The position numbers and the translations under genes are program-made. This document shows, one piece after another, positions 3,907 to 20,297 of a stretch of 22,101 nucleotides of DNA. The notes under the pieces are model-generated. The model had not been told where the DNA came from. It did not search any database and saw only the letters and a list, made by a program, of their open reading frames with translations. Source of the DNA: a virus; the IMG/VR virus record IMGVR_UViG_3300025466_001655, positions 1-22,101 of that record. One strand, 5' to 3'. Numbering within the stretch: the stretch's first letter is position 1; every line of letters starts with the position of its first letter.

Positions 3907-4230
3907 ATGAAAAAGACAGTTTTACTTTTATCATTGTTAGCACTGATAGGAACAGCATCGGCCCATGAAGGATTTCGTTATCGTGGCGGTTGCTGTTATA
4001 GAGGTGGATACGGTATGGGTTGGGTCGCTCCAGCTGTAGTAGGTGGAGTCATTGGATACGAATTAAGTCGTCCAAATGTCGTAGTTGAACAACAACCAGT
4101 ATACGTTACACCCCCACCAGTAGTTTATGTAAATCCTCCTGGAACACTTAATCCCCCAGCTGGCTATCATTATGCTCAAATGATTGACCCTAAGACAAAT
4201 CAATATACTATTGTTCTAGTACCAAATTAA
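3907..4230 (+). CDS. Small exported Gly/Pro-rich protein
   Basis: A 107-residue protein with a clear signal peptide (MKKTVLLLSLLALIGTASA, cleavage before HEGF). A Gly/Tyr/Cys-rich patch (RYRGGCCYRGGYGMG) follows, then one short hydrophobic glycine-rich segment (APAVVGGVIGYEL) and a Pro/Val-rich part with PPPVVYVNPPG. The end, AGYHYAQMIDPKTNQYTIVLVPN, resembles small periplasmic or envelope proteins seen in aquatic phages and bacteria, whose function I do not know. AAGGAG precedes the ATG. The stop overlaps the iscU start (TAATG), so it is co-translated with the Fe-S genes. Any link between them is unclear. Confidence 0.7.
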   Translation: MKKTVLLLSLLALIGTASAHEGFRYRGGCCYRGGYGMGWVAPAVVGGVIGYELSRPNVVVEQQPVYVTPPPVVYVNPPGTLNPPAGYHYAQMIDPKTNQYTIVLVPN

Positions 4231-4622
4231 TGGCATATTCAGATAAGGTAATTGATCATTATGAAAATCCTCGTAATGTAGGATCGTTTGATAAGAATGA
4301 TCCTACAATAGGTACAGGTATGGTGGGAGCACCAGCTTGTGGTGATGTAATGAAGTTACAAATAAAGGTAGACGAAGATGGTATTATTAGAGATGCTCGT
4401 TTCAAGACATACGGATGCGGTTCAGCAATCGCGTCGAGCTCACTGGTTACTGAGTGGGTTAAAGGTATGCATATTGATGATGCTATTAACCTTAAAAACT
4501 CCCAAATCGCAGAAGAACTAGCATTACCACCTGTAAAGATACATTGTTCAATTCTTGCAGAAGATGCCATTAAGGCAGCCATAAATGATTATCGTAACAG
4601 ACACAGCACAAAAGAAGATTAA
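4230..4622 (+). CDS. iscU: Fe-S cluster assembly scaffold IscU
   Basis: A 130-residue IscU on which [2Fe-2S] clusters are built before transfer to target proteins. All three cluster-binding cysteines are present (Cys37 in GAPACGD, Cys63 in YGCGSAIASSS, Cys106 in IHCS), together with the stabilising Asp39. The sequence LPPVK at 99-103 is the motif recognised by the Hsp70 chaperone HscA in bacteria. No iscS, hscA, hscB or fdx gene is beside it, so a sulfur donor must come from the host. The phage's own DnaK, 6 kb downstream, is a possible chaperone partner (inference). The last 38 nt overlap iscA. Confidence 0.95.
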   Translation: MAYSDKVIDHYENPRNVGSFDKNDPTIGTGMVGAPACGDVMKLQIKVDEDGIIRDARFKTYGCGSAIASSSLVTEWVKGMHIDDAINLKNSQIAEELALPPVKIHCSILAEDAIKAAINDYRNRHSTKED

Positions 4623-4911
4623 ACAAAATCTTGCCAAACGTGGTAAGGGTGTTGGTATTCGGGTAGGTGTAAGAACTACAGGATGCAGTGGGTTAGCCTA
4701 TGTGTTAGAGTACGTGGACAAGTATGAAGGCGAAGAAGGCATAATCAATTATGCTCAAAATGACTTCTGTGTACTGGTCAGTTTAAAAGACGAACCTTAT
4801 CTAAATGGTTTAATAATGGATTGGGTCCGCAATGGGCTCAACGAAGGATTTGATTTTCAAAATCCAAATGAACGCGATCGTTGCGGTTGCGGCGAAAGTT
4901 TTCGAGTATAA
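4585..4911 (+). CDS. iscA: A-type Fe-S cluster carrier IscA
   Basis: A 108-residue A-type carrier that accepts clusters from IscU and hands them to apo-proteins. The three invariant cysteines are present: Cys34 in RTTGCSGLAY, and Cys100 and Cys102 in the C-terminal RCGCGESF. The length is normal. The ATG lies inside the end of iscU (38-nt overlap, different frame), with AAGG about 9 nt upstream. This strongly suggests coupled translation and a stoichiometric IscU-IscA pair. Likely clients in this genome are not visible in the window. Host ferredoxin, needed by the bilin reductase further on, would be a reasonable one (inference). Confidence 0.95.
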   Translation: MIIVTDTAQKKIKQNLAKRGKGVGIRVGVRTTGCSGLAYVLEYVDKYEGEEGIINYAQNDFCVLVSLKDEPYLNGLIMDWVRNGLNEGFDFQNPNERDRCGCGESFRV

Positions 4912-10619: not shown

Positions 10620-10693
10620 GTGCTGAAACGCCGTAAGGGTTTAGTACATAGGGCATGGTGCCCGAATTTACTTGCTTAATTAAGGAGAAAATT
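10620..10693 (+). ncRNA. dnaK 5' leader with two hairpins
   Basis: Stem 1 pairs 10620-10627 (GTGCTGAA) with 10640-10647 (TTTAGTAC), 8 pairs including two G-U. Stem 2 is GGGC-ATGGT-GCCC at 10651-10663. Eighteen nt later comes AAGGAG (10682-10687), then 6 nt to the ATG. CTTAATTAAG at 10675-10684 is a palindrome that includes the first bases of the Shine-Dalgarno. The geometry matches the hsp20 leader (12621-12676), which suggests a shared cis-acting RNA element. Confidence 0.5.
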
Positions 10694-12589
10694 ATGAGCA
10701 AAATCATCGGTATCGATTTAGGTACAACAAATAGCTGTGTGGCAATCTTAGAAAACGGAGTTGCTAAAGTAATTGAAAACAGCGAGGGTGCTAGAACAAC
10801 ACCATCAATCATTGCGTATACAGATAAAGAAATTTTAGTAGGCGCAACAGCAAAACGACAAGCAGTCACAAACCCAAAGAATACAATTTACGCAAGTAAG
10901 CGTTTAATCGGACGTAAGTTCGAAGAACAAGCTGTGCAAAAAGACATCGACTTGATGCCATACACTATTATCAAAGCTGATAACGGTGATGCATGGATCG
11001 AAGCTAACGGCGAAAAGCTAGCACCACAACAAGTGTCAGCAGAAGTTCTACGCAAGATGAAAAAGACTGCCGAAGACTATCTAGGCGAAACAGTAACACA
11101 AGCGGTTATTACTGTACCAGCTTACTTTAACGATAGCCAACGTCAAGCAACTAAAGATGCAGGACAAATTGCTGGTTTAGAAGTTCTACGTATTATTAAT
11201 GAACCAACAGCGGCCGCACTAGCATACGGTGTTGATAAGGCAGATAAACGTGATCGTAAGATTGCTGTATATGACTTAGGTGGTGGTACATTTGATATTT
11301 CAATTATTGAAATTGCCAACATCGATGGTGATAAACAAATCGAAGTACTTGCTACTAACGGTGATACATTCCTAGGCGGTGAAGATTTTGACCAAGCTAT
11401 TATGGATCACTTGGTAGCAGAATTTAAGAAAGAAAATGGTATTGATCTTAAGACAGACGTACTGGCATTGCAACGTTTAAAAGAAGCCGCAGAAAAGGCC
11501 AAGATTGAATTGTCCAGCGCCGCAAGCACTACAGTTAATCTGCCATACGTTACAGCAGATGCAACCGGTCCTAAGCACATGAACGTAACAATTAGCCGTA
11601 GCAAGTTTGAAGCTATGGTCGAAGCATTGATTCAACGTTCAATTGAGCCATGCAAAACATGTATGTCCGATGCTAAAGTTACAGCCGCAGACATTGACGA
11701 AGTTATCCTAGTTGGTGGACAAACACGTATGCCAGCAGTACAAGCCGCAGTTGAAAAATTGTTTGGCAAGGCTCCACGTAAGGATGTTAATCCAGATGAA
11801 GCGGTTGCCGCAGGTGCCGCAGTACAAGGTGCTGTTCTAGCAGGCGACAAGACAGACGTATTGTTGTTAGACGTTACACCATTGACCTTGGGTATTGAAA
11901 CAATGGGCGGTGTGTTTACCAAGTTGATTGCTAAGAACACAACTATCCCAACTAAACACAGCCAAACATTTAGTACAGCAGATGATAATCAACCAGCTGT
12001 TACAATTAAAGTAGCACAAGGTGAACGTGATTTGTTCAAGTACAATAAATTGCTTGGCGAATTCAATCTAGAAGGTATTGATCCTGCTCCACGCGGCATG
12101 CCACAAATTGAAGTTACACTTGACATCGATGCTAACGGCATTTTGAATGTTAGTGCAACTGATAAGAAAACTGGTAAGGCTAACAAGATTACCATTAAGA
12201 GTGATTCAGGACTAAGCAAAGAAGATATCGAGCGTATGATTGCAGAAGCGGAAGCCAATGCTGAATCGGATAAGAAAGCCGCAGAATTAATCAACGCACG
12301 TAATAGCGCAGAAAGTCAATTGCACTCAATGGGCAAAGATTTTGATACGTACAAGGATCAAATCACCGACGAAGAAAAGACTGCATATGAAACAGCAGTC
12401 ACTAGCGCACGTGATGCGATTGCAGGAGAAGATATCGAAGCTATCAATTCTAGCATGAGCAAATTGTTTGAATCAGCAGGCCCAATCTTAACTAAGAAAC
12501 AAGCCGCTGAAACAGCGCAAGCAACTGATACAACCGGTGCACAACCTGCAGAAGGCCAAACAGTTGATGCGGCGTTCAAAGAAGTTTGA
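10694..12589 (+). CDS. dnaK: Molecular chaperone DnaK (Hsp70)
   Basis: A 631-residue full-length Hsp70. ATPase signatures are [18 protein letters not shown] at the start, [15 protein letters not shown] in the middle and [14 protein letters not shown] later. [18 protein letters not shown] and [13 protein letters not shown] are intact. The linker [19 protein letters not shown] joins it to the peptide-binding domain, and the C-terminus ends in the typical VDAAFKEV. It folds and refolds proteins with DnaJ and GrpE, neither of which is seen here, so host co-chaperones are needed. The start at 10694 is chosen from homology and AAGGAG; an upstream in-frame GTG at 10655 lies in the leader hairpin. 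A complete dnaK is uncommon in phages. Hsp20 follows under its own promoter. Confidence 0.97.
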
Positions 12590-12614
12590 CACACAGACAG
12601 ACTAGTAGTATAAT
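12586..12614 (+). promoter_or_regulatory. Perfect sigma70 promoter TTGACA-17-TATAAT
   Basis: TTGACA at 12586-12591 overlaps the dnaK TGA stop. A 17-base spacer leads to TATAAT at 12609-12614. Transcription should start at about 12621, exactly where the leader hairpin begins. Confidence 0.85.
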
Positions 12615-12620
12615 AAACGT

Positions 12621-12676
12621 GTAGGGTGCCCATGGTGGGGCCCTACAGAGTTCTTGCTTAATATAAGGAGACCAAA
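12621..12676 (+). ncRNA. hsp20 5' leader hairpin
   Basis: GTAGGG (12621-12626) pairs with CCCTAC (12641-12646). Inside it CCC-ATGGT-GGG (12629-12639) forms the tip with the same ATGGT loop as the dnaK leader but an inverted stem. Eighteen nt separate the hairpin from AAGGAG (12665-12670), then 6 nt to ATG. CTTA-ATA-TAAG (12657-12667) can fold over the first bases of the Shine-Dalgarno, a possible temperature-sensitive switch. Confidence 0.55.
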
Positions 12677-13105
12677 ATGTCACAAATGCAACTAAGAACT
12701 ATTAACCCAGCTGACTTAGCACAGATCAGCAGAGCCCTTGTAGGATTTGATCAATATTTCAATAATCCTCGATTACAAAACAGCAACTATCCTCCACACA
12801 ATATTGTGAAGTTTAGTGATAGTGAATATGCTATCGAAGTAGCAGTAGCAGGGTTCAGTAAAGAAGAAATCACAGTAGAAGTAGACCAAGACCAACTTGT
12901 TGTTCGCGGTACTCAAAAAGTTTCAGATGAAACTACTAAAGAGTATTTGCACAAAGGTCTAGCTAGCCGTGATTTTGAACAAACATGGACTTTAGCAGAG
13001 TACATGGAAGTCAAGGATGCAGAAGTCAAGGATGGTATGTTGATTATTAATATTCAACGAATCATTCCAGATTCACTAAAGCCAAGACAAATCGAAATTA
13101 AATAA
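12677..13105 (+). CDS. hsp20: Small heat-shock protein Hsp20 (IbpA-like)
   Basis: A 142-residue alpha-crystallin-type chaperone that holds unfolding proteins for DnaK-dependent refolding. The core runs from about residue 36 to 130: YPPHNIVKFSDSEYAIEVAV, AGFSKEEITVEVDQDQLVV, RGLA-type segment HKGLASRDFEQTWTLAE, and GMLIINIQRIIPDSLKP, i.e. the IbpA pattern of proteobacteria. The short C-terminal IEIK supplies the I-x-I anchoring motif. Hsp20 is a frequent gene of T4-like cyanophages. It sits directly behind dnaK with its own consensus promoter and matching leader, so both arms of the refolding pair are phage-supplied. Confidence 0.93.
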   Translation: MSQMQLRTINPADLAQISRALVGFDQYFNNPRLQNSNYPPHNIVKFSDSEYAIEVAVAGFSKEEITVEVDQDQLVVRGTQKVSDETTKEYLHKGLASRDFEQTWTLAEYMEVKDAEVKDGMLIINIQRIIPDSLKPRQIEIK

Positions 13106-13111
13106 TCAACC

Positions 13112-13129
13112 GGGGGAGGAAACTCCCCC
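13112..13129 (+). terminator. GC-rich hairpin with GAAA loop
   Basis: GGGGGAG-GAAA-CTCCCCC is a perfect 7-bp stem closed by a GNRA tetraloop, between hsp20 and clpS. CTCTTAAT follows rather than a long U-run, so it may be a weak terminator or an mRNA-stabilising or processing hairpin that separates hsp20 from clpS expression. Confidence 0.5.
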
Positions 13130-13149
13130 TCTTAATAGAAAGAGAAAAC

Positions 13150-13452
13150 ATGTCGACAACTGATATCCAATTAGAAGAAAAGATTAAAGTAGTAATCAGT
13201 GAACCTAAGCGTTGGAAAGTAATCCTATTGAACGATGATTCCACCCCAATGGAATTTGTAATATCATTGTTGATGGAAGTTTTTAGACATAACGAAAACA
13301 CAGCCCGAGATATCATGCTTCAAATACACGAGCAAGGTAGCGGTGTTGCTGGAACATATAGTTTTGAAATTGCCGAAGCTAAAGCAGTAGAAGCTACAAA
13401 TGCGGCAAGAACTAACAACCATCCTTTACAAATTAAATTGGAAGAAGAATGA
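13150..13452 (+). CDS. clpS: ClpS-type adaptor of the ClpAP protease (N-end rule)
   Basis: A 100-residue adaptor that delivers proteins with bulky N-terminal residues to ClpAP. The substrate-binding signature WKVILLNDDSTPMEFV (Asn28, Asp29, Asp30) is intact, as are His60 in MLQIHEQGSGVAGTY and the FEIAEAKA strand. The length is about that of E. coli ClpS (106). The N-terminal extension that engages ClpA (about residues 1-20) is present and charged. AAAGAGA precedes the ATG. The stop overlaps the heme oxygenase start (ATGA). No Clp ATPase or protease is seen in the window, so it must act on the host's; this could redirect host proteolysis during infection (inference). Confidence 0.93.
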   Translation: MSTTDIQLEEKIKVVISEPKRWKVILLNDDSTPMEFVISLLMEVFRHNENTARDIMLQIHEQGSGVAGTYSFEIAEAKAVEATNAARTNNHPLQIKLEEE

Positions 13453-14000
13453 GTTTACGTGATCTCACTAAAGAAGCACATACTAATGCTGAACGTCAGG
13501 AATTTGTAAAAATTCTGTTTTCCGGTAACATGGATCCAAAACTCTATGCTACATTTTTAAAGAATCAACATCCGTGCTATGAGTTATTAGAAGTATGCGC
13601 AATGACACATGGACTACTAAGTGATATGCCCGATGTTCGTAGAGCTCCTTATATTTTAAGTGACTTTATGGAACTATGGGGATCCGATAGTACTGAAGCA
13701 CCAAAGATTTGTCCAGTTGTTCAAGAATACTTAGATCACATAATGAGTATTAAGCATGATCCCCATAAATTAATGGCACACTTATATGTACGCCATATGG
13801 GAGATTTAGCTGGAGGCCAAATGATTGCTAAACGAGTACCTGGTAGTGGTCGTATGTATCAATTTGAAAATCCTGAAGAAATTAAAACAGCGATTCGTGC
13901 TAAAATTAGTGATGATATGGCAGATGAAGCAAATATATGCTTTGGATTTGCTACCCAACTGTTTAAAGAAATGTTAGAAATTGCCGATGAACTCAAGTAA
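13449..14000 (+). CDS. ho1: Heme oxygenase (biliverdin-forming)
   Basis: A 183-residue bacterial-type heme oxygenase that opens heme to biliverdin IXalpha, CO and Fe2+ using reduced ferredoxin. The proximal heme ligand is His11 in TKEAHTNAERQEF. The distal helix motif HMGDLAGGQMIAKRV (Gly118, Gly122, Gly123) is intact. It is somewhat shorter than plant and cyanobacterial HO1 (~235). It is coupled to clpS by ATGA and to the bilin reductase by a 14-nt overlap, the same HO-reductase pairing known from cyanophages and from pcyX-carrying phage contigs. Products are a bilin precursor and free iron, either of which could be the point. Confidence 0.93.
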   Translation: MSLRDLTKEAHTNAERQEFVKILFSGNMDPKLYATFLKNQHPCYELLEVCAMTHGLLSDMPDVRRAPYILSDFMELWGSDSTEAPKICPVVQEYLDHIMSIKHDPHKLMAHLYVRHMGDLAGGQMIAKRVPGSGRMYQFENPEEIKTAIRAKISDDMADEANICFGFATQLFKEMLEIADELK

Positions 14001-14673
14001 AGTTTGGGATACTCTAATAAATATTCAACATTTATTGGAGACTGAGTTTGGCAGGACTGGCACTGAAATCTTTGAGCCTGGAATGGATCGCTTCAATCAG
14101 CCTGGCTGGATTAATCGTGTATGGAGTTCTGATCTTTATCGCCGTGCTCACGTTGACGTGGTTGATGCGAGAGATTCAAAAGGACTCTGGATGATGCATT
14201 GTTGCATCTTCCCACATACTCACAACCCTGCTCCTATATTTGGCTTTGATGTAATAGCTGGCAAGAACAAAATAACTGGTTGTTTTCACGATTTCAGTCC
14301 AGCAGGCGATACATTCCATCCTATGATTGAATGGTTTGGTTCTGAAGTTGCCAAACTAGAATGGCGTAAATCACGTGCTTTGCCTGATTGGGCACAGCGT
14401 ATTTTTACAGAACACATGGTGGCCGCAGGCAATGTTAGCGATGAAGCAGAGTTAGATCAGATTACAGAAATGGCTAGAACTACCCTAGCGCATTATTTGG
14501 ACTCTGTGGGTGAAACTAACCATACTGTAGCAGATACTACCAGTTTCCAAAACTATTATTGCGATAATCAAAAACAAAATCCACATACTCCCCGAGTTAT
14601 GGCTAGCTTGGGTTTAAATGAGGACGATGTACACGCATTCATACAGGAATGTCTCTTCCCTGAAATAGTATAA
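13987..14673 (+). CDS. pcyX: Ferredoxin-dependent bilin reductase, PcyX/PcyA-like
   Basis: A 228-residue enzyme of the ferredoxin-dependent bilin reductase family, which reduces biliverdin to phycobilins. Recognisable segments are SSDLYRRAHVDVVDAR, WMMHCCIFPHTHNPAPIFGF-D (His71, Asp88) and GCFHDFSPAG (Asp102). The FG-x-D strand carries the Asp usually involved in protonation. Known relatives are PcyA, PebS of cyanophage P-SSM2 and PcyX from phage metagenomes; pairing with a short HO and a non-cyanobacterial context favours PcyX, which yields phycoerythrobilin. The ATG at 13987 lies within the HO gene; an in-frame TTG at 13981 adds two residues. The subfamily is inferred, the family is firm. 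Confidence 0.87.
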   Translation: MNSSKVWDTLINIQHLLETEFGRTGTEIFEPGMDRFNQPGWINRVWSSDLYRRAHVDVVDARDSKGLWMMHCCIFPHTHNPAPIFGFDVIAGKNKITGCFHDFSPAGDTFHPMIEWFGSEVAKLEWRKSRALPDWAQRIFTEHMVAAGNVSDEAELDQITEMARTTLAHYLDSVGETNHTVADTTSFQNYYCDNQKQNPHTPRVMASLGLNEDDVHAFIQECLFPEIV

Positions 14674-14676
14674 ATA
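14669..14676 (+). promoter_or_regulatory. T4-type late promoter TATAAATA
   Basis: An exact TATAAATA overlaps the end of the bilin reductase gene. Seven bases separate it from the ATG at 14684, where late transcripts normally begin, so the head-protein mRNA should be leaderless. No Shine-Dalgarno is visible. Confidence 0.75.
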
Positions 14677-14683
14677 TTGTACT

Positions 14684-16360
14684 ATGCATATTTTAGACAT
14701 TTTATCAGAAGCCAGCCTAGTTTCAGGTGCAAAAAGTTACAGCTACGGCCATGCTGTTCGTCTCAAGGACAGCCCTACCGCTATGAAAGGCGGAGTACAA
14801 AAAATATTAGATGCTGTACCTGGTTTGGAAAACGATGAAAAATTAGAATGGATTGATCCCAAATCCGTTAACAAAAAAACAGATGAAATTTATCCAGTAA
14901 TACTTGGCAGAGGCGGTGATTCATTGTTTTTTAGACGAGCAGACAACTCAGTTCTATTAATACAAGGTCCTGTCAAAACAATAGAAGGACTGTTACTACA
15001 TTACGAATCCTTCAATAGAGGTGATATTGCAGAAGGCTTGTTAGGTGCGGCACTTACTGCGAAATTGGTCAAACGTGGCGGCGATAGAATTGGTAAAATT
15101 GATATAACCGATATCAAGAATATTTTGAATCAGGCAGTGGCCCGCGGCGATAACACCATGGTTGTTAGAGTAAATGATAAAAATAGCGAAATTGCTGACA
15201 ATGTAAATTTTTATTTAAGATTGCCAACCAACAGCATGGCTTTTATTAAAACCCCAGCCAACTGGGATCGTGTTCAAGATTTGTTCAGCAGTGCTCTAGA
15301 ATATTGCAACGGTACAGATGCGGAACGTTATAGCAATTATTTTTACCGCAACGGCAAAGTGGATGATGTTAGAATTGTCAGTGACGGAGTTGGCGGTTCA
15401 AAAGAACGTAAAACTGATGTACAAGCAGTGGTATATGAGACTGACCCCATCACTGGTAAGAAAACCAAACGTGATCTAAAAAATGTAGATATCAGTCTCA
15501 AAGCTGACAGCGATACTATAGGACAAATGACTTCAGGAGGGTTGCAAGCCAAACCAGATGTGTGGCTTGCAAATGCCAATGAAATGTTTAATCAATTGGG
15601 TGTGAGTGTGGTTATGCCTTTGAAAGGCAAAAATGATATTATATCTTTTTGGAATAATGTATATAAACAAGCCTATAATCAATTAAAAACTATTTTGGCT
15701 GAATCCAATGCCAACAAAGAAACTGCCATCATAGAGAAAATAGCTGATTTTCTTGAAAAACAAGGTTCACAACAATTAGATAAAGAAACTAATACATGGA
15801 GTGTGAATAAAAATTTAAAACTGCTGAGTTTTAAAGGCGGCACTTATACCATGCACAGTTTTGCCATATTAAAAAAACAATTGATTAATAAAGGTATCAA
15901 TTTAGATGTAAAACTTGTGGTTGGAAAAGCCAGCCAGAAACCTAAGATAGTGTTTTTTGATACAGGAGCGACTGGTTTAGCCCTTGCAGAAATTAGATAT
16001 ACACAAGGTGCAACAAAATCCAGTAATTATTTCACCAAAGGTCCGTTAATGAGTGAATTAACTAAAATAGAAAAACATAAACAAGATCCCGGAGAAATTA
16101 TTGCTCCTCCACCCGCAGATGCAACTCCTCAAAAACCTGTAACAGCACAACCGGTTAAAACTCCAGCAGGAGCTAAACCGTTAACTATTAAACCAGTTAA
16201 ACATGATAAGTTCCCACAATGGACTGGACGTCAGCCTACAACTCCAGGACTTGCACCAGTTGGAACAATATCTGGCACAACTTCAAATATTCCATCATCG
16301 AAAAAATCATATGTAGATGAACCGGATGAAATTGTAACAGAAACCAAAAAACGCAAGTAA
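14684..16360 (+). CDS. Probable head-internal protein with PD-(D/E)XK-like nuclease region
   Basis: A 558-residue protein. Its first residues, MHILDILSE followed by ASLVSG, fit the T4 capsid-targeting peptide (short amphipathic leader ending in L/I-x-E before A/G, cut by the prohead protease gp21). Residues about 113-128 (GDIAEGLLGAALTAKL, Glu117), 243-250 (KTDVQAVV, Asp245) and 268-276 (VDISLKADS, Lys273) followed by GQMTSGG have the order and spacing of PD-(D/E)XK nucleases. The C-terminal ~100 residues are Pro/Thr/Lys-rich and basic. An exact late promoter drives it. I infer an enzyme packaged in the head and injected with the DNA, comparable to T4 Alt or internal proteins. The nuclease assignment is tentative. 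Confidence 0.6.
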   Translation: MHILDILSEASLVSGAKSYSYGHAVRLKDSPTAMKGGVQKILDAVPGLENDEKLEWIDPKSVNKKTDEIYPVILGRGGDSLFFRRADNSVLLIQGPVKTIEGLLLHYESFNRGDIAEGLLGAALTAKLVKRGGDRIGKIDITDIKNILNQAVARGDNTMVVRVNDKNSEIADNVNFYLRLPTNSMAFIKTPANWDRVQDLFSSALEYCNGTDAERYSNYFYRNGKVDDVRIVSDGVGGSKERKTDVQAVVYETDPITGKKTKRDLKNVDISLKADSDTIGQMTSGGLQAKPDVWLANANEMFNQLGVSVVMPLKGKNDIISFWNNVYKQAYNQLKTILAESNANKETAIIEKIADFLEKQGSQQLDKETNTWSVNKNLKLLSFKGGTYTMHSFAILKKQLINKGINLDVKLVVGKASQKPKIVFFDTGATGLALAEIRYTQGATKSSNYFTKGPLMSELTKIEKHKQDPGEIIAPPPADATPQKPVTAQPVKTPAGAKPLTIKPVKHDKFPQWTGRQPTTPGLAPVGTISGTTSNIPSSKKSYVDEPDEIVTETKKRK

Positions 16361-16374
16361 TTCTGCCAAATCAG

Positions 16375-16408
16375 TTGTAATTTTTGTTAACATGTAGTAT
16401 TATAAATA
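16375..16408 (+). promoter_or_regulatory. Promoter region: TTGTAA-17-TATTAT and TATAAATA
   Basis: A sigma70-like pair (TTGTAA 16375-16380, TATTAT 16398-16403) overlaps an exact late box TATAAATA (16401-16408). The ATG at 16415 is 6 bases after the late box and no ribosome site is visible, so the transcript would be leaderless or nearly so. Confidence 0.6.
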
Positions 16409-16414
16409 CTAGAC

Positions 16415-16860: not shown

Positions 16861-17373
16861 ATGAAAAAACTACTGGTATTCAGTACTTTCTGCATACTGA
16901 CTGCAAATTTTGCACACGCAGAATTAGTACAACAATTCAAAGATCCAACATTCAGCGGGAATGGTTGGGCTACCCAAGTGTTGACTTTACAACAAATGGA
17001 AATGAATAATAAAGCTGCCAATCAAAGTAAAGTCGATGCCGCCGCCGCACAGGCTAAAGCTGATGCCGCAAATACTCCAATATCTAAATTTATGAGTTTG
17101 TTCAGTAGTCAAGTATACAGTCAACTTGCTACACAGTTGAGCAATAATTTATTTTCAACTTGCAAAGATTCCAGTGGCGCGGCTATTCCAGGATGCAATC
17201 CAGCTACAACAGGAACATTTAACGTAGATGCTAACACTACTGTTAACTGGTTCAAAACTGTAAGTGATCCTGCTTATAACGGACAAAGTAGTGTTACATT
17301 AAAAGTAACAAATAAAGCAGACGCTAGTCAAAACACAACATTAACTGTGCCGATTGCCAGTTTTGCATTTTAA
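16861..17373 (+). CDS. csgF: Curli assembly protein CsgF-like
   Basis: A 170-residue exported protein with a signal peptide (about residues 1-20, cut after AHA). The mature N-terminus ELVQQFKDPTFSGNGWATQV followed by LTLQQMEMNNKA matches the CsgF pattern, in which an N-terminal FxxPxFGGN-like segment plugs into the CsgG pore. The rest contains a coiled/Ala-rich helix (AAAAQAKADAA) and a beta C-terminal half. In E. coli CsgF (~138 residues) couples the CsgG channel to fibre nucleation at the cell surface. It is immediately upstream of csgG (14 nt apart), as expected for a functional pair, with a GGAG Shine-Dalgarno. Confidence 0.85.
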   Translation: MKKLLVFSTFCILTANFAHAELVQQFKDPTFSGNGWATQVLTLQQMEMNNKAANQSKVDAAAAQAKADAANTPISKFMSLFSSQVYSQLATQLSNNLFSTCKDSSGAAIPGCNPATTGTFNVDANTTVNWFKTVSDPAYNGQSSVTLKVTNKADASQNTTLTVPIASFAF

Positions 17374-17387
17374 GGAGAGCTAGATAA

Positions 17388-18239
17388 ATGAAAGTATTAA
17401 AATTAACAGCACTAGCCCTTGCAATAGCAATGATGGCAGGTTGCAGTACCGTACGCCCATTGGGTAAAGTAGATATTCAGGATCAACCTACTGTCAGTAA
17501 GAATATGACGAAGGAAATTGATCGACTACCGTCACCAGATGGAGCTCCGATTGCTGTAGCTGTATACGGATTCAAAGATTTAACAGGGCAACGTAAAAAT
17601 AGCCAAACACTAAGTTTGTTCAGTACAGCCGTTACACAAGGTGCTGAAGCATACATGATTAAGACCCTACAAGAAGCTGGTAATCGTCAATGGTTTACAG
17701 TTGTAGAACGTGTTGGCCTAGACAACTTGTTAAAAGAACGTCAAATGATTAAACAAACACGTGAGATCTATGAAGGACAAAATGCTAAATTATTACCTCC
17801 ATTAACTATGGCTGGTGTAATTATTGAAGGCGGTATTATTGATTATAATAGTAACGTTCTTACAGGTGGTACAGGAGTAGCTGTATTTGGAATTGGTCCG
17901 TACACGCAGTATACACAAGATCAAGTTGTCATCAGCTTGAGATTAGTAAGTGTACAAACTGGCGAGATCTTAACAACAGTAACCATTGAAAAGAACTTAT
18001 TGAGTACACAAGATGGTATTACAGCATTAAAATTCTTTAATCAAAACACAGACAGTTTTGAATTTGATTCAAGCCAAAGTTTCAATGAGCCAGGAAACTA
18101 TGCATTGCGTAGTGCCATTGAACAAGGTGTTGTTGAATTGATTAAGAAAGGCGAGCGTCAGGGACTATGGCGCTTTAAGACTAGTGTTGTAAATCCAACA
18201 CCTGTTGAAAATCCCACACCTGAAGTGTTGAAAAAATAA
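17388..18239 (+). CDS. csgG: Curli secretion channel lipoprotein CsgG
   Basis: A 283-residue outer-membrane lipoprotein forming the nonameric pore that exports curlin subunits. The lipobox MAGC puts the lipidated Cys at position 19. Core motifs are PIAVAVYGFKDLTGQRK, FSTAVTQGAEAYMIKTLQEA, WFTVVERVGLDNLLKERQMI and the membrane-crossing stretch GGTGVAVFGIGPYTQYTQDQ. The C-terminal tail (NPTPVENPTPEV) is a short proline repeat. The length is close to E. coli CsgG (277). CsgG homologues are known in T4-like marine phages. Here it is accompanied by CsgF and two curlin-repeat proteins, so an export system, not a lone gene, is present. Confidence 0.95.
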   Translation: MKVLKLTALALAIAMMAGCSTVRPLGKVDIQDQPTVSKNMTKEIDRLPSPDGAPIAVAVYGFKDLTGQRKNSQTLSLFSTAVTQGAEAYMIKTLQEAGNRQWFTVVERVGLDNLLKERQMIKQTREIYEGQNAKLLPPLTMAGVIIEGGIIDYNSNVLTGGTGVAVFGIGPYTQYTQDQVVISLRLVSVQTGEILTTVTIEKNLLSTQDGITALKFFNQNTDSFEFDSSQSFNEPGNYALRSAIEQGVVELIKKGERQGLWRFKTSVVNPTPVENPTPEVLKK

Positions 18240-18338
18240 CAGCGGAGTATTTCTTTTAGATACTTCATATTAAATATTTTAGTAAAGGTAGGTTTGTAGA
18301 AGTTTATTTGGGTTAATAGCCCGCGGAGAGTAACAAAA
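18240..18338 (+). promoter_or_regulatory. 99-base spacer between csgG and curlin gene
   Basis: AT-rich spacer. It holds an imperfect hairpin (GAGTAT at about 18245 with ATACTTC at about 18261), an ATTAAATATT that only loosely resembles a late promoter, a short GGG-TTAATAG-CCC hairpin, and GGAGAG before the ATG. I see no convincing promoter or gene in it. Confidence 0.35.
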
Positions 18339-19109
18339 ATGAAAATAAAAATAATAGCAGTAGCCACAGCAATGATCTTGGCACAAACTGCATGGTCACA
18401 AACAGCGCCAACAGCGCCAACAGCAACAGTTATACCAGCGGCCGTACAAGCCACTGATGCTAATTTTGTCGCAGGCGTAACAACGGCATTAAGCAATGCT
18501 ACAACCAACATTGTTTACTTACAGCAAAGTGGTAGCACTCCAACTGTAAGTATTACACAAGATGGCAACAGCAATAAAATTGGTTATGGTAACGGAACAG
18601 CTAACCCTGTTATGTTGAATGGTAGTAATCAAACTGTAAATATTATTCAATCAGGAAATTTGAATAGTGTAAACACTTTGACATTGACCACAACTAGTGG
18701 TAGTAGCACAGTAAGCCTATTACAAAACGGCAATAGTAATTCAGCAAACATTACTTGTGTTACATGTAACGCATTTGAAGCTAACTGGCAATTTACTGGT
18801 AATAGCAATACACTAAACTTCCAAGGCAACGGTGCTAACTTAATCAGTGGTGCTAATGTTCAAGGAAACGGCAATACTATTAACAGCTTAATGACTGGTG
18901 ACGGACATCAACAGTTAGTAGATGTTAGCGGTAACAACAACACAATCAACTTAACACAAACTAGCGCAACCGCTAGCAGTATTAATTTGGCTCAAACTGG
19001 TACAGGCACTACTTTTAATATCAGTCAAACAGGCACATATAGTAACGTAGCAAATATTCAAGCAACTGCTAACGGCGGTAGTTTTAATATTACACAACAT
19101 AGTCACTAA
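18339..19109 (+). CDS. Curlin-repeat amyloid subunit (CsgA/CsgB-like)
   Basis: A 256-residue exported protein with a signal peptide (residues 1-20 or so, ending AWSQ). Repeats of about 20-22 residues with the curlin spacing, a hydrophobic strand then Q-x-G-x-x-N, follow: VSITQDGNSNKIG, VNIIQSGNLNSVN, VSLLQNGNSNSAN, INLTQTSATASSIN, INLAQTGTGTTFN, FNISQTGTYSNVAN and FNITQHSH. I count at least eight units, some degenerate. Curlin repeats stack into amyloid beta-solenoids after export through CsgG. One short cysteine pair (ITCVTCNAF) is unusual for curlins. Its place after csgF-csgG makes it the likely main cargo. Confidence 0.88.
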   Translation: MKIKIIAVATAMILAQTAWSQTAPTAPTATVIPAAVQATDANFVAGVTTALSNATTNIVYLQQSGSTPTVSITQDGNSNKIGYGNGTANPVMLNGSNQTVNIIQSGNLNSVNTLTLTTTSGSSTVSLLQNGNSNSANITCVTCNAFEANWQFTGNSNTLNFQGNGANLISGANVQGNGNTINSLMTGDGHQQLVDVSGNNNTINLTQTSATASSINLAQTGTGTTFNISQTGTYSNVANIQATANGGSFNITQHSH

Positions 19110-19118
19110 GGAGTAGCT

Positions 19119-20297
19119 GTGAAATGTTTTGCCCTTTCATTGTTGTTAGTCGCAACAGCGGCTGTGGCGGACATTGGTTCGGTAACGGATGTCACTGGAA
19201 TTGCCATTATTAAACGTGGCAGTTCCAGTGTCGTTGTTTCGAAAGGTACTCTGGTGGAAATGAATGATCGAGTAGAGGCAAAAGCAGGCGAAGTAAAGAT
19301 AGTATTCAAAGACGATACAACCGTGCGAGTAACGGCAAGTAGCGCATTAGTCATAGACGATTTCGTTTACGATCCTAAAACTAAAGGTGGTAAACTTGGC
19401 CTTAAGGCCGCGGAAGGCACAGTACGTTATGTGTCTGGTAATATTGCTCACAATAATCCAAATAGTGTGAACATCAAGACCCCCACAGCCGCTATTGCGG
19501 TTCGTGGGACCGATTTTGTTATGGCGGTTGGCGAAACAGGTGCAAGTACTGTTATTCTTATGCCAACTTGTGAAATAGAACATAACATTAATTTAAAAGG
19601 CTTAATCTGCGGTAGTGGTGCTATTGATGTAGAATCAGGCGGGCACATTATACACATGACTAAACCTTATGAAGCGGCAATGGTAATGAATCAAGACGAT
19701 GCACCAATGGGCCCGGTAGTTGTTGACCTAGGCGGCGCTCCTATTGGTAATAACTTGATGATAACTCCACCTAAGACCCCAACTGGTATGACTATTCAGC
19801 AGGCCGCAAGAAGTGCCGCTGAAAAAACAGGTGATGTTAGAAAGAAAGAAAGTGTAGATAAAAAAGAAGATAACAAACAAGCACAAGGCTCTGAAAATAA
19901 CAATCCAACTAGTGGTGAAGCGGCCGCACAACAACAGCAACAACAACGTGAACAACAAGCACAGTCTAGTGAACAACAGCAACAAGAACAAGCGGCTTTG
20001 TTAAACAAAGTTATTGATACTAGTGCTCTTAAAGCCGCAGGTGTAAATGTTAGCAATGCCGCCAGCGGTGATCCTAATGTATTTGAAATACACAAAGACA
20101 ACAACGCCACATTACAGCAATTAGGTTGGGGATATGCTAGTTTGAGTGCTAACGGTCATAATTATGCTAACATAGCATTACCAACAGACAGCCAAGTGCT
20201 AGTGATTGTAACACAAGATCGTGTTACTGATGCTTATAATTTTTCTAGTAGTACTAAGGCATATGGTAGCATAATAATCAATCAGAGTTACAAATGA
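19119..20297 (+). CDS. Exported FecR-domain protein with Gln-rich region
   Basis: A 392-residue protein with a signal peptide (MKCFALSLLLVATAAVA, cut before DIGSV). A FecR-type domain follows (about residues 22-150): AIIKRGSSSVVVSKGTLVEM, VKIVFKDDTTVRVTASSALV, and the diagnostic TPTAAIAVRGTDF. After it come a Cys pair (PTCEIEHNINLKGLICGSG), a charged Lys/Glu stretch and a poly-Gln-rich segment at about 270-292, then a C-terminal globular part. FecR domains are also used in exported surface proteins without a sigma factor, which fits here. It starts 9 nt after the curlin gene with GGAG, and is coupled by ATGA to the next gene. A role in anchoring or nucleating fibres is inference. Confidence 0.8.
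   Translation: MKCFALSLLLVATAAVADIGSVTDVTGIAIIKRGSSSVVVSKGTLVEMNDRVEAKAGEVKIVFKDDTTVRVTASSALVIDDFVYDPKTKGGKLGLKAAEGTVRYVSGNIAHNNPNSVNIKTPTAAIAVRGTDFVMAVGETGASTVILMPTCEIEHNINLKGLICGSGAIDVESGGHIIHMTKPYEAAMVMNQDDAPMGPVVVDLGGAPIGNNLMITPPKTPTGMTIQQAARSAAEKTGDVRKKESVDKKEDNKQAQGSENNNPTSGEAAAQQQQQQREQQAQSSEQQQQEQAALLNKVIDTSALKAAGVNVSNAASGDPNVFEIHKDNNATLQQLGWGYASLSANGHNYANIALPTDSQVLVIVTQDRVTDAYNFSSSTKAYGSIIINQSYK

Follow-up and report, generated by a model that had tools for sequence, protein, structure and literature searches.

The 22.1-kb virus fragment analysed here (the window) carries a gene whose product we read, with moderate confidence, as a restriction-like endonuclease that a jumbo phage, its head being of the T4 type, encapsidates and injects. 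Sequence comparison gives good support to the class of the leader peptide, to gp21 and gp23 in the lineage, to a late promoter and to a set of invariant residues of catalytic type; processing, packaging, injection, catalysis and target are what we infer for the protein. By analogy, virion proteomics of cyanophages at the corresponding locus lends indirect support to the proposed capsid storage and injection.

Gene, family and late expression

The features of the gene and its product are as follows.

14669..14676, plus strand: late promoter TATAAATA of the T4/cyanophage type, 7 nt ahead of the ATG
14684..16360, plus strand: coding sequence, 558 aa, comprising leader, N-terminal domain, PD-(D/E)XK-like core, C-terminal domain and disordered tail
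14684..14710, plus strand: capsid-targeting-type leader MHILDILSE, predicted cut after E9 (between 14710 and 14711), mature start Ala10
14741..15007, plus strand: N-terminal alpha/beta domain, about residues 20–108, present in jumbo-lineage members only and missing from most cyanophage members
15008..15583, plus strand: PD-(D/E)XK-like core, about residues 109–300, with the invariant columns and the HinP1I fold match
15032..15034, plus strand: E117, invariant, on helix 112–129
15410..15418, plus strand: K243-T-D245, K243 and D245 invariant, at the beginning of strand 246–253
15494..15502, plus strand: S271-L272-K273, invariant, strand 270–273
15524..15526, plus strand: Q281, invariant
15635..16078, plus strand: C-terminal alpha/beta domain, about residues 318–465
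16079..16357, plus strand: Pro/Thr/Lys-rich disordered tail, residues 466–558, pLDDT mostly <50

The 558-codon ORF is open exactly over 14684–16360 and its N-terminus reads MHILDILSEASLVSG; both the frame and the first residues, MHILDILSE-A, agree with a preliminary description of this DNA. The protein recurs at 100% identity on two further contigs, each about 26 kb long, the gene being interrupted by the end of one of them. A Pfam search with the 558-aa protein returned no family. Its centre is matched by the uncharacterised families PHROG 33928 (E = 4e-14, residues 111–281), which matches 30/30 family members examined, and PHROG 3560 (E = 2e-10), and the member in Syn19 is annotated as T4-like GC 979. 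The initial view that the protein belongs to no described family has to be narrowed accordingly, as it does fall into PHROG 33928/3560, families without an assigned function. These cyanophage proteins are clear homologues sharing the E...D...SLK core; they differ in that most are devoid of the leader and the N-terminal domain and are encoded in the replication-gene region.

Besides an unannotated Desulfovibrio phage 7757 gene, the relatives include hypothetical proteins of the cyanophages ACG-2014f, S-RIM8, Syn19 and Syn2. When IMG/VR was scanned with a profile, 65 loci were recovered, and scanning with the closest members found further ones; a genome scan for bacterial or archaeal homologues of the 558-aa protein confirmed none, and the scan using the Desulfovibrio phage member as query gave zero matches.

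Late promoters have been described as NATAAATA in cyanophages and as TATAAATA in T4 (PMC2984593). The late promoter initially proposed ahead of the gene is borne out at 14669–14676, as TAAATA lies 4–7 nt ahead of the ATG in all six subfamily genes (6/6), between which the frame of the upstream stop differs. In a 364,554-bp relative (G009), TAAATA stands 3–8 nt ahead of the ATG in 19 genes against 0.85 expected (P about 1e-19), with a Shine-Dalgarno-like site in just 1/19; a second group in this genome carries TAAATA 12–30 nt upstream, and 34/48 of these genes do have such a site. Since TAAATA is kept despite the differing stop frame and is enriched 3–8 nt before ATGs without a Shine-Dalgarno sequence, the idea that TATAAATA arises incidentally from the stop of the preceding gene (GTA TAA ATA) could be ruled out. 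A promoter merely 7 nt from the ATG implies a leaderless mRNA, and the pattern points to leaderless late messages, that of the window gene included. TAAATA 3–8 nt before the ATG with almost no Shine-Dalgarno sequence was observed at 14669–14683 and 16401–16414 of the window, in the 19 genes of G009 and in 11 genes of G004, which suggests that leaderless late mRNAs may be widespread in the jumbo phage lineage.

Leader peptide and head assembly

The T4 proteins IPI/IPII/IPIII and Alt bear a capsid-targeting sequence (CTS), are processed by gp21 and are injected. The leader of IPII/IPIII reads MKTYQEFIAE/A (the slash marking the cut) and that of IPI is longer, MKTFKEFTSTTTPVSTITE/A, with the cut sites established for T4. 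Among the relatives of the window protein, the leaders are MHILDILSE/AS (L099), MRFKEFLIE/AS (L009), MRFTELKE/AS (L008/L096), MRIIDVISE/AS (L101) and MQLLDLVENTRILNE/AS (L097/L098), so that [LI]xE/A-S is retained in five relatives with leaders of 8, 9 or 15 residues. A protease site would be expected to impose just such a constraint, constant in motif despite differing leader length. The L009 leader, MRFKEFLIE/ASV, and the T4 leader, MKTYQEFIAE/ASV, are closely alike.

CTS propeptides of T4 comprise 10–20 residues (PMC5694885) and are the sole conserved portion of its diverse internal proteins; staphylococcal nuclease has even been packaged via the T4 CTS, the packaged DNA being cut only upon addition of calcium (PMC3012670). 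A head of this kind is encoded in the lineage of the window protein, as the 364-kb relative, which is the contig of L096, encodes gp23 (E = 8e-100) as well as a protease of the gp21 type (E = 1e-25), both located in that genome and not within the window, adjoined by gp20- and gp22-like genes as judged by position and sequence appearance. Moreover, 20 of its ORFs carry [LI]xE[AGS] near the start compared to 7.5 expected (P about 1e-4), and ten carry [LI]xEA compared to 2.6 (P about 4e-4). A lineage devoid of gp21, as none was found in G001–G004, could be ruled out, these being fragments and the 364-kb relative having the gene.

Taken as sequence evidence, the kept motif at variable length, the likeness to the T4 leaders and gp21/gp23 in the relative uphold the T4-like head-targeting leader with a prohead-protease site that had been suggested for this gene, and its assignment as a T4-type capsid-targeting sequence is well supported. 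It counts against our reading that the leader was not found in most cyanophage members, nor in the syntenic L071 member. In S-SCSM1, the leader motif by itself does not separate virion proteins (3/48) from other proteins (3/201), and its use as a general virion-protein predictor in that phage is unsupported. With IPI/IPII/IPIII and Alt, the window protein shares the short N-terminal leader ending in [LI]xE/A, the gp21/gp23-type head of its lineage and probably late expression; in contrast to the T4 internal proteins it is far larger (558 aa), its mature domain is unrelated and bears a nuclease-type signature, and its packaging is predicted only.

Apart from this family, further proteins have conspicuous N-termini. 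At L086:9119–9661 (minus strand), a CTS-like leader, MRISEIISE/A, is followed by YLYHGTSPRNAAKI, resembling the start of an ADP-ribosyltransferase domain; the match to PARP reaches E = 0.19 only, and an injected enzyme similar to Alt is a possibility. At 82–92 kb of G003 (L081) and 4.4–7.3 kb of G002 (L092), several encoded proteins have N-termini of the M[RK]xxEL/F type and are possibly internal head proteins as well; two of them end in RLSGFK or KKLSGLK, and one matches DUF6267.

Conserved core, fold and genomic slot

Conservation was assessed in 30 divergent sequences from cyanophages, the jumbo-phage lineage and others, 21–41% identical to the window protein, and in a second set, likewise of 30 sequences, with three further jumbo-lineage members among them. 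Invariant in the first set are G113, E117, A122, A123, A126, D172, N209, G235, K243, D245, S271-L272-K273, Q281 and R438; the second set yields the same columns minus A123 and R438. E117, D245 and S271-L-K273 sit where the preliminary description had placed them by eye, and all proved invariant; E117, D245 and K273 all being among the 13–15 invariant columns has a chance of about 4e-5. Of the residues following K273, where a G-Q had been noted, Q281 is invariant. Together, E117, K243/D245, S271-L-K273 and Q281 form a PD-(D/E)XK-type signature in which S replaces the D/E of (D/E)XK, with the E on a helix, the D on a strand and the S-x-K variant on a later strand. Active restriction enzymes with S-x-K, N-x-K or Q-x-K in this place are known, namely Cfr10I/Bse634I, MspI and HinP1I.

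In the structure that AlphaFold predicts for the window protein (pLDDT 77; 75–95 over most of the core, tail disordered), E117 lies on a helix, D245 at the opening of a strand and SLK two strands further on in sequence, adjacent in motif order. A Foldseek search of the PDB with this model put HinP1I on top (E = 7e-3, probability 0.89), alone above noise, with a probability of ≤0.25 for the other matches listed; the superposition is loose (TM 0.21/0.38). For a cyanophage member, an independent AlphaFold model (pLDDT 86, less good in the core region) gave no nuclease among its matches, and in a viral structure library the significant matches were two cyanophage family members only. Sequence and profile searches of PDB sequences matched no solved nuclease, HinP1I and MspI included. 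Thus, of the nuclease-like core suggested at the outset, the residue pattern holds and HinP1I is found with the window model, but the fold match was not reproduced with the cyanophage model; for this reason HinP1I was not adopted as a firm family. Given also the loose superposition, we regard motif conservation as good support for the nuclease assignment, and the fold as no more than moderate support. HinP1I/MspI resemble the window protein in that HinP1I is the top PDB fold match and a non-canonical residue replaces the D/E before x-K; they differ in showing no sequence similarity to it, and the window protein has extra N- and C-terminal domains, is encoded by a phage and bears a capsid-targeting leader.

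In the jumbo lineage, the gene comes after ClpS-like, heme oxygenase and bilin-reductase genes. In the window, heme oxygenase and a ferredoxin-dependent bilin reductase lie directly upstream (13449–14673), syntenic in jumbo relatives, which places bilin-synthesis-type genes in a phage lineage. Elsewhere, the window encodes a curli-like cluster at 16861–20297, consisting of CsgF (E = 4e-7), CsgG (E = 1e-46), a protein whose Q-x-G-N repeats resemble those of curlin and another with a FecR domain, and, by sequence appearance, Fe-S assembly proteins resembling IscU and IscA, a complete DnaK and Hsp20-like and ClpS-like proteins at 4230–4911 and 10655–13452.

In cyanophages, the gene follows gp41 and mazG, and a DUF6267 gene and/or a CTP-transferase/NMNAT-like gene lies downstream, the latter encoding proteins with MKSFxxFLxEA-type (CTS) leaders. 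An NMNAT-like protein of this CTS-bearing kind has been detected in virions by mass spectrometry, and on the same basis the NMNAT of S-SCSM1 (leader MKSFLQFLKE/AA) is recorded as a virion protein, as are the proteins encoded next to it (PMC9602691, GenBank notes). The slot of GC 979 in Syn19 is occupied by GC 533 in S-SSM5, P-SSM7 and P-HM1, with homologues of GC 533 at the same position in S-SCSM1, S-CAM8, S-CAM4 and ACG-2014e; their alignment contains an invariant K-W-x-P-x-D...G-x-S-L-K, and mass spectrometry places S-SCSM1_90, a GC 533 protein, among the virion proteins. The likeness to the window family thus comprises the shared slot between mazG and DUF6267/NMNAT, the invariant P-x-D...G-x-SLK and an upstream G-x-G...E...AA segment, whereas GC 533 is without a CTS-type leader and sequence and profile comparison detected no relation to the window family. 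The latter makes this a case of analogy, and SSCSM1_90 was ruled out as a family member and regarded as a motif analogue in the same slot.

A D12/Dam methylase gene adjoins the family gene in two lineages, immediately preceding it in the L018 group and immediately following it in ACG-2014f. No D12-type methylase was found in G004/G010, nor in the 364-kb relative, where its absence counts against our reading. At L018:3480–7077, a GHKL-type ATPase (HATPase_c_3, E = 8e-24), a Dam/D12 methylase and the nuclease-family gene stand in a row, a trio resembling a restriction-modification or defence-type operon within a phage contig.

Proposed function and its alternatives

In our reading, the gene would be transcribed late in infection from TATAAATA, probably as a leaderless mRNA, and the N-terminal leader would steer the protein into the prohead core, where a gp21-type protease would cleave after L-S-E (E9/A10) and leave Ala10 as mature N-terminus. 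The mature protein would then be packed alongside the genome and injected, and in the new host could act as a PD-(D/E)XK-type (E117/D245/SLK273) metal-dependent endonuclease, a putative fold kin of HinP1I-like restriction enzymes, on DNA that lacks the phage's own protection, i.e., host or competing DNA.

Alternatively, the protein could be a PD-(D/E)XK-type nuclease working in the producing cell, e.g., on recombination intermediates, in host-DNA breakdown or in packaging, any virion association being secondary. The leaderless cyanophage members adjoin uvsX, the primase-helicase gene gp41 and mazG, as would suit such a role, and novel REase-fold proteins, proposed to be Holliday-junction resolvases, are reported from jumbo phages, as is a function in packaging for T4 gp4, a virion-associated REase-fold DNase (PMC7824862). 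We nevertheless regard a role confined to the producing cell as rather unlikely, as the window subfamily keeps [LI]xE/A-S at variable leader length, its gene has a late promoter and virion proteins neighbour the corresponding cyanophage slot.

Improbable, in our estimation, is a packaged and injected but catalytically weak or dead DNA-binding protein or inhibitor, e.g., a decoy against host restriction; IPI*, for comparison, blocks GmrSD. Known T4 internal proteins mostly serve counter-defence (PMC3012670). The S in place of the D/E of (D/E)XK and the loose fold match would also fit an inactive protein, and a DNase lying next to packaged DNA calls for self-protection, for which no D12-type methylase is at hand in the 364-kb relative. 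However, dead enzymes do not usually keep residues such as E117, D245 and K273 invariant at such low identity, P-x-D...SLK is seen again at the same slot in a family without relation to this one, and active enzymes with non-canonical residues before x-K are known. About as improbable, finally, is a merely coincidental likeness to PD-(D/E)XK, with the conserved residues serving a different purpose, structural or enzymatic, in a protein of the head interior or one associated with DNA: profile searches match no nuclease and the cyanophage-member model gave none, but E, D and SLK come in the order and on the secondary-structure elements that suit the fold, HinP1I stands out for the window model and methylases are neighbours in two lineages.

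Returning to the packaged endonuclease, the capsid-targeting leader on a nuclease-type protein appears to be new, a limited literature search having found no description of it, and already known is the T4 kind of internal protein. Inhibition of host defences and modification of RNA polymerase are the main activities known for injected proteins of the T4 type; a restriction-like nuclease carried in the head would instead serve for attack, reaching the host ahead of any phage gene expression. This would raise the question whether a DNase is held in the head next to its own genome via metal exclusion, DNA modification or activation by leader cleavage. Moreover, our reading supplies a function hypothesis for hypothetical proteins spread among marine T4-like phages. 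More tentatively, T4-lineage phages of aquatic bacteria might reserve one locus for restriction-type nucleases that are packaged in the head and injected, with at least two SLK families of separate descent (GC 979 and GC 533) occupying it beside injected NMNAT-like/DUF6267 proteins and sometimes a protecting Dam methylase. If so, the phage would bring along a ready-made restriction enzyme, destroying unmodified DNA of the host or of competitors at the very moment of infection.
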